A DNA stretch of 47,126 nucleotides from the IMG/VR virus record IMGVR_UViG_3300032282_003362, positions 1 to 47,126 of that record, one strand, 5' to 3'. The stretch is from a virus. Under the pieces are notes generated by a model. The model saw nothing but the letters and a program-made list of their open reading frames with translations, made no database searches and was not told the DNA's origin. Positions 17,175 through 44,857 of the stretch are shown here, one piece after another. Position numbers and translations under genes: made by a program. Numbering within the stretch: position 1 is the stretch's first letter; every line of letters starts with the position of its first letter.

Positions 17175-17916
17175 CCCGGCCATAGGACTGCATGGCTCGG
17201 GCCTTCTTGTCGGTGGCGTGCTTGATACCAGGTTCAAAATTGCCGTAGCGGTGGCGGCGATTGAAATCAGACCGCCTGGCTAGGTTCTCGTCGTAGCGCC
17301 TAGCAACCCGCTCCAAACCTCCGATATGGTGGAAATGCAGCATCAGGCAGGCCGGATAATGAGCTGCGCGAGGGTTTGCTATTGGTCGGTTCTTTAGGCC
17401 CGTAGCCTCAACAGAATGGGCTCCCATACTGAAACTGATAGAGGCAACCCGCTTGGGGCTGAAAAGGACTGGTTTGGCGTACCATTGGTCGTCCCTGCCG
17501 CCGTACTTGATATGATCGTAGATCTGGGGGGTGCCTTCGGGTGGAAAGGTATCGGAAAGCATCTCGTAGCCGTAGGGCTTCACGATCTGGATCTCCTGTT
17601 TCTCGTAGAGCTCTAGGCTAAGTTGAGCCCCTGACGGGAAGTACAGCAATTCGTCTGCATCTGCCTGAATGATCCAGTCCGCATCAGTCCCTTTCCAAAG
17701 CTCGTTCTTGATCCTTTGATTGAGGGAATCATCAAACTCGCCCTTGCAATCGTGCTGCACGATTTCAGCGCCAAGCCCAATAGCCGACTCGCGGCTTCCG
17801 TCCGTGCTGCCGAGATCATGGACAATCAAGCGACGGCAGAACGTAGCGTAGTGTTTGAGAGCCCAAGGCAGGATCTCAGCCTCGTTGAAGTTCAAGATGT
17901 GTAAGTCGCAATTCAT
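17164..17916 (-). CDS. glycosyltransferase family 2-like, 250 aa
   Basis: A GT-A fold glycosyltransferase: LHILNFNEAEILPWALKHY at residues 5-23, HDLGSTDGS at 33-41 and the metal-binding QADADEL at 84-90. It resembles the subgroup of small cytosolic GT2-like enzymes with a downstream HFHH motif (here LMLHFHHIGG). Last gene of the four-gene glycan operon; its ATG overlaps the preceding stop (ATGA). The acceptor is unknown; virion fibres or host surface glycans are both possible. Confidence 0.8.
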   Translation of the reverse strand: MNCDLHILNFNEAEILPWALKHYATFCRRLIVHDLGSTDGSRESAIGLGAEIVQHDCKGEFDDSLNQRIKNELWKGTDADWIIQADADELLYFPSGAQLSLELYEKQEIQIVKPYGYEMLSDTFPPEGTPQIYDHIKYGGRDDQWYAKPVLFSPKRVASISFSMGAHSVEATGLKNRPIANPRAAHYPACLMLHFHHIGGLERVARRYDENLARRSDFNRRHRYGNFEPGIKHATDKKARAMQSYGRVIS

Positions 17917-19226
17917 GGGGCAATCTTTTCGATGCAGGTCTGCCAGCCTCTGTTAGAGATCACTTTGATCTGCTTGGCGTACACATTGAGGAAGGCATCA
18001 ACACCCGCCTTTGGGCAATCAAGCGGATCAGGCATCACCGTCCACATAACGTCATCCCAGACAAGGATTCCTCCGACCTTGAGCAGATCAAACCCGAGTA
18101 CGGCATCTCGGAGGGCATCGCGGCTGGTGTGCGAACCATCAACATAGAGAAAGTCCAAGCACGCCTTGGGCTTGAAATCACGGATCAAGTCCTCGGAAAA
18201 CCCCACAAGGATTCTTGCTCCTGGGAACCGCTCCAGCCGCTTGCGCGTTTCCTTTTCAAGGGTTGAGCAATCTTCCTTACCGATGTGGTGCTCGATCGAG
18301 CCGGTAAAGGGATCAATGCAATAGTAGGTCGATCCTTGGCCCGTGAAAACATTCTCCAGCATCCATTCTGCTGAATCGCCCTTGAAGGTTCCGATCTCCA
18401 TTCCGATCGCGTTGGGTTTGTCGATGAGGTGGTTGAGCCACTTAGACCAATTTGGCCCATGAACTCTACCTGTCTCGGTATTCCAAGGAACTTTAGTCAT
18501 AGGTCTTGAGAAGTCTCGGAAGAATTCCTCGTAGCGCGTGTAATCGTTTGAGATCAAGGAGATCAACTTATTGAGGCCCTTGTCATCAACAGCACCCCGG
18601 TCTCGCTCGCCATGACCGCCGCCGTAGCCAACCTTGCCAGGCATTGCCTTAATTCCGATCACCTGGCGATTCTTGCCGTTAGCCAAAGGATCAAGCATCC
18701 TGCGCCGATTTGGGCGCGTTCGATCCCATAGCCGGACATCTACGAATGGATTCGTGTCCTCAAGCATCGAGGAAAGCAGATCGTAGTTCTCTTTGCGGAT
18801 GGCGGTCGCGCAAAGGCTGGCGTGGTTCATGTTCTGGTGCTCGTACCACCACCGTTCCTTGACGTTGTAATACACCGCCCGTCCTTCGCCAAAGATCGTG
18901 GTTTCATGGCTCACCAAAGCCTTCTCGCAAGTCTCGATCCATGTCGGGGCGTACCAATCATCGTTCTCCCAGAACACAACAATGTCTCCCTTGATCAGAC
19001 CTGAGCGAAACGCCAACCGGAGCTTGGCAACAAGACTAGAGCACTTCGGATCACGGCACTCTGGGGCATAAATGTACTGCTGGCCCATCGTGCAAACGCT
19101 AGGCGGATCATCATCGTCAATTACAAGCCACTGATCCGGCTGGCGCGTCTGACGCTTCATGTAGTCCTCGGAGATCTTCCATGCTTCAGGGCGGTGAACG
19201 GCGGTGGTTAATGCAGTAACGATCAT
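17913..19226 (-). CDS. glycosyltransferase - methyltransferase fusion, 437 aa
   Basis: Residues 1-230 resemble a GT2 enzyme (MIVTALTTAVHRPEAW, VIDDDDP at 35-41, metal motif ENDDW at 87-91). Residues about 272-410 are a class I SAM methyltransferase of the Methyltransf_24 type: IGMEIGTFKGDSAEWML (274-290), YCIDPFTG, LDFLYVDGSHTSRDA (357-371) and GGILVWDD. It has the same domain order as the 7966-9228 fusion but clearly different sequences, so two independent sugar-transfer/methylation proteins exist. ATGA overlaps on both sides show translational coupling. Confidence 0.8.
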   Translation of the reverse strand: MIVTALTTAVHRPEAWKISEDYMKRQTRQPDQWLVIDDDDPPSVCTMGQQYIYAPECRDPKCSSLVAKLRLAFRSGLIKGDIVVFWENDDWYAPTWIETCEKALVSHETTIFGEGRAVYYNVKERWWYEHQNMNHASLCATAIRKENYDLLSSMLEDTNPFVDVRLWDRTRPNRRRMLDPLANGKNRQVIGIKAMPGKVGYGGGHGERDRGAVDDKGLNKLISLISNDYTRYEEFFRDFSRPMTKVPWNTETGRVHGPNWSKWLNHLIDKPNAIGMEIGTFKGDSAEWMLENVFTGQGSTYYCIDPFTGSIEHHIGKEDCSTLEKETRKRLERFPGARILVGFSEDLIRDFKPKACLDFLYVDGSHTSRDALRDAVLGFDLLKVGGILVWDDVMWTVMPDPLDCPKAGVDAFLNVYAKQIKVISNRGWQTCIEKIAP

Positions 19227-43166: not shown

Positions 43167-43637
43167 TCATGGCGGCGTCGATACAGCTGGCGGCGCTTCC
43201 CACCGTATCTTTAAGCACGCGAAAACCTCTTGATGTTCTCGGTCTCTTGTCTGCCAGCCCGATCCACTGGCGGGTTTTACCTCCGTTGGCTTCCATCCCG
43301 CTCCGCGCAAACTAGATCCTGACTCAGACCGTAGCGTATAAGTTACCATCCGTGTTCCGCCCATTGAGAACCAGACGCGGCGACAAGCGCCGTATAAAAA
43401 CGAACAAGTCCCCAATGGGGCATCAGGGATAACACAGAGCCGATTAACTTCCGCCGTAAAATGATGGTCTAGTTTTCTCGCTATAGGCCGCCCAACGATA
43501 GCGACACCGACTAAAACGCCTTCATGCTCCGCCCCGATAGAAAAACGGTGTTCTGTTACCGGCTTGTTATGCCGGTGCCACTCCGCGACAAGTTCGTTTG
43601 CTCGCTGGAGAGTTAAAGGGATCAATTTCATTTTCAC
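43167..43637 (-). CDS. GNAT-like protein, XF1762 type, 156 aa
   Basis: Sequence features LTLQRANELVAEWHRHNKPV, HRFSIGAEHEGVLVGVAIVG, NRLCVIPDAPLGTCSFLYGA and TYTLRSESGSSLRGAGWKP match a widespread phage/prophage GNAT-fold family. It could acetylate a host protein or small molecule; the target is unknown. GTG start in a GTGA overlap, or ATG two codons later. Last gene of the leftward early operon, convergent with the phosphoesterase gene. Confidence 0.8.
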   Translation of the reverse strand: MKMKLIPLTLQRANELVAEWHRHNKPVTEHRFSIGAEHEGVLVGVAIVGRPIARKLDHHFTAEVNRLCVIPDAPLGTCSFLYGACRRVWFSMGGTRMVTYTLRSESGSSLRGAGWKPTEVKPASGSGWQTRDREHQEVFACLKIRWEAPPAVSTPP

Positions 43638-44079: not shown

Positions 44080-44857
44080 GGGATGTTTCGATTATGTCAG
44101 TCACTGACTGGATGAACTCCGCCGCGAGCTGCGGACAGATTGCATTGCCGTAGCCCCGCAGGAGTCCCACGCGGCCGGGTAGCCCATCAACCAACGGGAA
44201 AATGCCGGGTTCAATACGCCTCGACCGCCCATCTTTGCACCCGATCGTTTCGGAGTTTTCCCAAAAACATTCAGGATCACTTGGGTTGTTAGAGAAATTT
44301 GAGTCCCCTTTTTTCCCCTGGTTCGATCCTGAAATCCCTGTCGAGCTTCTGATGCTACCGGAGATTGCCACCCAGAATAAGCGTTGCCTGACCTGTGGGC
44401 TTCCGACGCTCGCAGCGCACAAATCGGCCCCCCCGACTCCATATCCCATTCCTTCCAAGTCAGTTCGTACTCCGTCGAGCCATAAGCGGCCAGACGCGCT
44501 CGCAACCTGCTCGCCAAAGACACTTGTAGGGCGGCACTCTTTGATGAGGCGTTGGAATTGAGGCCAAAAATGTCTAGGGTCTGCTGTTCCAAGTTGCTTT
44601 CCAGAGTTGCTGAAAGGCTGGCAAGGGCAGGAGCCTGTCCACACGGGTCGATCTTGGGGCCAGTTGGCGAGCTGGAGGGCAAGGGACCATCCCCCAATTC
44701 CGGCAAAGAAATGGCATTGGTTATACTTCCGCAAATCTCCGGGCTGAACATCAGCGATTGAACGCTCGTCAATGTCGCCGGATGGGATGTGTCCGCATCT
44801 GATAAGTTCGCGCAGCCATGCTGCGGCTTTTGGATCGAATTCATTGTAATAATTCAT
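44072..44857 (-). CDS. DNA (cytosine-5) methyltransferase, 261 aa
   Basis: Motif I FFAGIGGWSLAL (50-61), motif IV GSCPCQPFSNSG (75-86) with the catalytic Cys, motif VI as FGEQVAS (114-120) instead of the usual ENV, motif VIII RQRLFWVA and motif X RGYGNAICPQLAAEFI. It would methylate C5 of cytosine at an unknown site, probably to evade host restriction. The target recognition region is short (about 60 residues), as in small phage enzymes. A second long frame overlaps almost the whole gene. Confidence 0.9.
   Translation of the reverse strand: MNYYNEFDPKAAAWLRELIRCGHIPSGDIDERSIADVQPGDLRKYNQCHFFAGIGGWSLALQLANWPQDRPVWTGSCPCQPFSNSGKQLGTADPRHFWPQFQRLIKECRPTSVFGEQVASASGRLWLDGVRTDLEGMGYGVGGADLCAASVGSPQVRQRLFWVAISGSIRSSTGISGSNQGKKGDSNFSNNPSDPECFWENSETIGCKDGRSRRIEPGIFPLVDGLPGRVGLLRGYGNAICPQLAAEFIQSVTDIIETSHA
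44101..44844 (-). CDS. nested overprinted gene in the methyltransferase, 247 aa
   Basis: An ATG-started frame inside the methyltransferase gene, same strand, shifted frame. Its product has the features of a widespread phage protein that I know: SAALQVSLASRLRARLAAYG, STEYELTWKEWDMESGGPIC, ALRASEAHRSGNAYSGWQSP and the C-terminus LNPAFSRWLMGYPAAWDSCG. The same DNA codes for the methyltransferase motifs VIII-X, so the two proteins would be dual-coded. Function unknown. If not translated here it is a fossil of how the family arose. Confidence 0.55.
   Translation of the reverse strand: MNSIQKPQHGCANLSDADTSHPATLTSVQSLMFSPEICGSITNAISLPELGDGPLPSSSPTGPKIDPCGQAPALASLSATLESNLEQQTLDIFGLNSNASSKSAALQVSLASRLRARLAAYGSTEYELTWKEWDMESGGPICALRASEAHRSGNAYSGWQSPVASEARQGFQDRTRGKKGTQISLTTQVILNVFGKTPKRSGAKMGGRGVLNPAFSRWLMGYPAAWDSCGATAMQSVRSSRRSSSSQ

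Follow-up and report, generated by a model that had tools for sequence, protein, structure and literature searches.

Can a single stretch of viral DNA encode two proteins in two frames of the same strand, and what would the second protein be? The question is raised by IMG/VR virus record IMGVR_UViG_3300032282_003362, of which positions 1–47,126 were analysed (47 kb; hereafter the window). The ORF list contains two ORFs that run on the same strand and have 744 bases in common. The longer one, a methyltransferase ORF in frame 0, is termed alpha, and the ORF in the +1 frame of alpha is termed beta. The original prediction of two real ORFs on one stretch of DNA was borne out, as was its observation that the DNA encoding GYGNAICPQ in one frame encodes GATAMQS in the other. 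The features of the two ORFs, together with two further genes of the window, are collected in Table 1.

Table 1 Coordinates of alpha, beta and other features of the window.
Feature	Position	Strand	Basis or remarks
Alpha, C5-cytosine DNA methyltransferase frame, 261 aa	44072..44857	-	PF00145, phrog_363, AF2 model
Alpha motif I, HFFAGIGGW	44687..44713	-	columns nearly invariant in alignments A2/A4
Alpha motif IV, catalytic PCQ	44618..44626	-	P78, C79, Q80 invariant
Alpha motif VI, EQV (ENV variant)	44504..44512	-	E116, V118 invariant
Alpha motif VIII, RQR	44381..44389	-	R157, R159 invariant
Alpha motif X, GYGNAICPQ	44129..44155	-	G237, N238, A239 invariant
Beta from first ATG, as originally predicted, 247 aa	44101..44844	-	stop depletion, fourfold-site constraint
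Beta from an internal ATG, the likelier start, 216 aa	44101..44751	-	homologue start pattern; start unproven
Beta helix and LTWK hairpin, best-modelled part	44401..44541	-	helix 71-90; strands 95-102, 110-117
Beta motif IX, NPAFSRWLMGYPAAW	44167..44211	-	P182, W187, P192, W195 invariant
Mom-like DNA modification gene	43167-43637	-	phrog_1384, E 1e-29
437-aa ORF	17913-19226	-	phrog_2675, a different DNA methyltransferase family, matches in part (E 5e-8)

Content of the two reading frames

Profile searches assign alpha to the C5-cytosine methyltransferases, with an E value of 3e-17 and 63.7 bits for PF00145 (curated cut-off 22) and an E value of 7e-75 for phrog_363. The PCQ, E-x-V, R-x-R and GNA motifs are conserved or invariant in 41 aligned homologues, and the AF2 model of alpha resembles M.HhaI and M.HaeIII. 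However, the match to PF00145 spans only profile positions 65–166. Residues 170–199 and 216–237 are disordered in the model, as is most of the region 170–237. Neither motif IX nor a folded recognition domain was found within the alpha polypeptide by PF00145 coverage, AF2 modelling and motif inspection. The original prediction had assigned the complete motif series I–X to this frame; the enzyme class holds, whereas the series comprises motifs I–VIII and X, and motif IX sits in the +1 frame instead.

The AF2 model of beta is poor overall (pLDDT 60, pTM 0.27). Its helix and LTWK hairpin are modelled with pLDDT values of about 77–93 and include the almost invariant W99. The C-terminal part, LNPxFxRWLMGYPxxW, appears from its sequence to be a form of motif IX, and the helix that carries it is ordered (pLDDT about 83), whereas alpha is disordered over the same DNA. 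Along alpha codons 165–212 beta is the better conserved of the two proteins, with an identity of 0.65 versus 0.50 for alpha in pairs that are 70–85% identical overall, and of 0.90 versus 0.77 in pairs that are 85–98% identical. Sequence searches of Pfam, NCBIfam and the PDB returned no family match for beta, and a Foldseek search with its model returned no match with an E value below 0.001. The window beta does match phrog_1008 (E value about 1e-22 to 2e-22) and phrog_31772 (E value 9e-13), both of which are labelled DNA methyltransferase in PHROGs.

The first ATG of the beta frame, at 44844, is unconserved, and many homologues have the frame closed at this point. Many homologues offer an ATG about 76–121 bases into alpha, the window equivalent of which is the ATG at 44751. 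In 48 of 76 homologues, an ATG or GTG accompanied by a Shine-Dalgarno-like motif occurs no more than 130 nt from the alpha start, with candidates peaking at 75–89 and 105–119 nt. Beta would therefore probably begin at an internal ATG 30–40 codons into alpha. The window ATG, at +106, has no strong Shine-Dalgarno motif, so the start of the window beta is uncertain.

Selection on the +1 frame

Relatives were gathered with beta (60 loci) and, separately, with alpha only (80 loci). All 147 sequences, including the window and five GenBank phages, match both profiles in overlapping frames, a few of them with frameshifts. A +1 run as long as that of the window gene survives in 2 of 1000 synonymous codon shuffles of the gene, and by the same shuffles its +2 frame is not unusually open. 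Among 76 homologues with less than 80% identity, the median share of alpha that is open amounts to 90% in the +1 frame and 20% in the +2 frame. Expected numbers of stops were derived by within-gene synonymous codon shuffling over alpha codons 41 to the end minus 20. The 76 non-redundant homologues contain 22 stops in the +1 frame versus 266 expected (8%), while 146 other genes from the same loci, used as controls, contain 1592 versus 1577 expected (101%). Frequent stops in close homologues, together with a lack of similarity to stand-alone proteins, had been named beforehand as the finding that would refute the original prediction; as to the stops, those in the second frame are almost absent.

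The strongest evidence for constraint on beta comes from a fourfold test, in which third-base match was scored at the conserved codons of alpha in pairs with 55–70% protein identity. The fourfold match is 0.31 before and 0.30 after beta. It amounts to 0.42 at alpha codons 40–100, 0.70 at codons 100–165, 0.65 at codons 165–215 and 0.71 at codons 215–245. Most of codons 215–227 score 0.92–1.00, and several codons of LNPxFxRWLMG reach 100%. A second, divergent family shows values of mostly 0.45–0.90 inside beta versus 0.31–0.40 outside. Beta is under purifying selection, strongest from about alpha codon 100 onwards, and the stop depletion and the fourfold-site constraint together show that both frames are under selection, in support of the original prediction.

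These values also bear on whether the +1 frame might merely reflect sequence conservation and codon bias in the methyltransferase, as a shadow with no product of its own. The alternate frame of any conserved gene looks somewhat conserved, and when pairwise alternate-frame identity was compared with shuffles, the +2 frame also lay above the shuffles, so this test is not specific enough. A shadow would, however, account neither for the depletion of stops relative to the control genes nor for a fourfold constraint that starts and stops with the beta ORF. It is also at odds with the ordinary openness of the +2 frame and with three canonical methyltransferases analysed as controls, in which the longest +1 ORFs measure just 73, 47 and 44 aa. 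The shadow reading was rejected on the basis of stop depletion, control genes and fourfold-site constraint, and is regarded as extremely improbable.

Distribution, and the split and fused forms in actinophages

The second frame had been likened to a family of free-standing phage proteins. Stand-alone beta was not found in viral contigs, bacterial genomes, plasmids or 593 sampled genomes, the latter drawn evenly from the two phyla to which the Yersinia and Geminisphaera seeds belong. A scan of bacterial contigs with the beta profile yielded 80 loci, 79 of which have alpha overlapping and beta in the +1 frame; in the remaining one, alpha is shifted and lies at a contig edge. Beta matches occur in 34 of the 593 sampled genomes, and in sampled and seed genomes combined alpha is overlapped in the +1 frame at 42 of 44 beta loci. 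One of the two exceptions, L356, is a canonical single-frame enzyme; the other, L358, is a broken copy. With the 147 sequences described above, these counts establish a near-constant co-occurrence of the two frames and do not support a stand-alone family. Phage proteins that seem free-standing, such as FoX4 gp11 and PMG1_00057, are merely annotated alone; the methyltransferase frame that they overlap is intact or nearly so.

Phages of Paenibacillus, Lactobacillus and Mycobacterium share this architecture, as does a plasmid of the archaeon Methanomethylovorans hollandica, and hhalign shows the beta proteins of these phages and this plasmid to be homologues of the window type (E value 1.8e-25). 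Hundreds of phages and bacteria retain the double coding, as does at least one plasmid from an archaeon. One prophage-like copy (L183, 2831–3900) has an in-frame stop in alpha and an intact beta frame. Ten loci of nearly constant length (L203, L204, L209, L213, L222, L225, L229, L233, L236 and L237) come from many Rhodobacteraceae and related genomes and possibly represent a conserved or vertically inherited form.

A different division is seen in actinophages. At locus L241 alpha ends just past motif VIII, and the +1 ORF contains LPTP repeats, motif IX and motif X. In mycobacteriophage Phanphagia, gp65 comprises motifs I–VIII, and gp66, in the +1 frame, comprises the recognition region and motifs IX and X; Arthrobacter phage Leona has a Phanphagia-like split into gp41 and gp42. 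A fused single-frame form exists in Seagreen, where one ORF of 511 aa carries the recognition region and motifs IX and X in frame 0. The Seagreen and Phanphagia DNA sequences are 96% and 98% identical on either side of a difference of about 509 bases. Since 509 is not a multiple of three, the frame shifts and the Seagreen recognition region, motif IX and motif X land in frame 0. The differing bases, in L311 (Seagreen, 1344–2879) relative to L310 (Phanphagia, 1344–2370), are LPTP repeat DNA. These repeats are found in both frames and might permit switching between split and fused forms by recombination.

The actinophage proteins connect beta to a methyltransferase part. Window-type beta aligns with actinophage beta (hhalign E value 2.5e-8), and phrog_1008 matches both Phanphagia gp66 (E value 4e-75) and the fused Seagreen enzyme (E value 6e-79). 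The beta profile also matches motif IX (LLPVECERLMGFPDNWTR) of the ordinary single-frame methyltransferase L356 with an E value of 3e-4. The three canonical controls carry motif IX in frame 0. When actinophage beta was compared with these enzymes (hhalign, A5 versus A7), motif IX aligned to motif IX with an E value of 0.1, which is not significant. The proposed link from beta to the canonical motif IX depends on this short motif.

Alternatively, beta could be a protein with a role of its own, for instance a regulator or an anti-defence protein, overprinted by chance on a methyltransferase. Its lack of a Pfam, NCBIfam or PDB family would suit this possibility, as would its N-terminal 66 residues and LTWK hairpin, for which no counterpart was identified in canonical enzymes. 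Some actinophages, moreover, keep the hairpin part in the +1 frame even though their motif IX is in frame 0. Nevertheless, the fused enzyme contains a part homologous to the beta recognition region and motif IX, no beta copy was found apart from a methyltransferase, and alpha is itself without motif IX, all of which makes an independent function unlikely. The original prediction that a protein family was born by overprinting on a methyltransferase holds with respect to the overprinting but not with respect to a new, unrelated family, because beta matches the recognition region and motif IX and is more readily understood as the second half of the enzyme. In four actinophage loci (L149, L151, L238 and L240) motif IX is in frame 0, and in the first three of these the LTWK-like/LPTP part remains in the +1 frame, an intermediate arrangement. 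Beta may therefore do more than supply motif IX.

A probable two-subunit methyltransferase

The stretch is likely to encode a two-subunit C5-cytosine methyltransferase similar to M.EcoHK31I, with both subunits overprinted on one DNA. Alpha would provide the AdoMet-binding and catalytic body with motifs I–VIII, along with a C-terminal motif X helix. Beta, judged by its sequence, is most likely the second subunit and the DNA-recognition piece that alpha is without; it would provide the helix and hairpin, a variable target-recognition region and motif IX. We infer that beta is translated, from the same message as alpha, and that the two polypeptides assemble in trans, with beta completing the small DNA-recognising domain. 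The complex would be an active methyltransferase. Its presumed substrate is the DNA of the phage itself, and protection from host restriction is the most plausible purpose.

Programmed ribosomal frameshifting could instead join motifs I–VIII in frame 0 to the recognition region and motif IX in the +1 frame, leaving no separate beta. That the joined order is tolerated is evident from the fused Seagreen protein, and the L241 alpha stops just past motif VIII. Yet the +1 frame is open and constrained far upstream of any useful shift point, at codons 100–165 and in the conserved LTWK hairpin, and the window type has motif X in frame 0, which would require two shifts. For these two reasons a frameshift fusion is the less likely arrangement, and the internal starts with Shine-Dalgarno motifs in the homologues also speak against it. 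Frameshifting is accordingly judged quite improbable.

For the two-subunit enzyme, strict overprinting probably applies to the N-terminal half of beta, over motifs IV–VIII, and to alpha residues 165–235, over the recognition region and motif IX. Such an arrangement could have arisen from a one-frame enzyme in two steps. A frame change after motif VIII would have produced the actinophage split, making the N-terminal half of beta a new sequence that overprints motifs IV–VIII. A second frame change, between motifs IX and X, would have returned motif X to frame 0 and given the window type, in which alpha residues 165–235 would be overprinted on beta. The reverse order, with fusion from a split ancestor, is possible. 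The split and fused forms at 96–98% DNA identity make this evolutionary step directly testable.

The beta ORF of M.EcoHK31I is nested in alpha, in a different frame, and M.EaeI shares this arrangement. This precedent would temper the novelty of a dual-coded split methyltransferase. According to the part of PMC3404938 that deals with M.EcoHK31I (recognition sequence YGGCCR; citing Lee, Kam and Shaw 1995), its alpha subunit contains motifs I–VIII and X and its beta subunit motif IX, and the recognition domain is predicted to lie in alpha. The enzyme has been used as a naturally split methyltransferase (PMC3439449). Compared by description, the window pair has the same motif partition, with a larger protein containing motifs I–VIII and X and a smaller one containing motif IX; it differs, again by description, in that the window alpha is modelled as disordered at the recognition stretch, where the beta frame is the more conserved, which would speak against a recognition domain in the window alpha. 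M.AquI (CYCGRG) also consists of two subunits, split near the recognition region, with motif IX in the second polypeptide (PMC3404938). The actinophage form (Phanphagia, Leona and L241) divides alike, with motifs IX and X in the second protein, whereas the window type keeps motif X in the first protein and its ORFs overlap along nearly all of beta.

The putative Mte8-like protein ADA82376 of K1ind1/K1G-type phages, like phrog_1008 and phrog_31772, is the same +1 protein annotated within a methyltransferase gene; these records leave both the overlap and the function of the protein unexplained. The ShiLan domain HNH endonuclease is likewise an out-of-frame ORF hidden in a phage DNA methylase gene (PMC11855218). 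It is, however, a mobile insertion encoding an endonuclease, whereas the window pair has no insertion and its +1 frame probably encodes part of the enzyme. In the literature searched, no paper describing the present alpha/beta overlap was found.

Few long overlaps between same-strand genes with strong selection on both frames have been documented in prokaryotes, and the hundreds of sequences available here allow selection to be measured by codon. A two-subunit enzyme would explain why many phage and bacterial C5 methyltransferases seem too short and without motif IX, and would correct a common annotation error in which one gene of the pair is dropped. It would also furnish natural split methyltransferases in which the recognition part is a separate, repeat-bearing protein. 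A broader proposition is that an ancient break divided a C5 methyltransferase between two frames, with its halves then overprinting each other. The nested pair would now be spreading through phages, Bacteria and Archaea, among the most widespread same-strand dual-coding genes known, with annotations that routinely mistake it for a single gene or a hypothetical protein. The case for this proposition is evenly balanced.

The Mom-like gene of the window adjoins the alpha/beta pair. Its position beside alpha and beta fits a DNA-protection module and suggests an anti-restriction cluster. The 437-aa ORF that partially matches another methyltransferase family (Table 1) is located elsewhere in the window.
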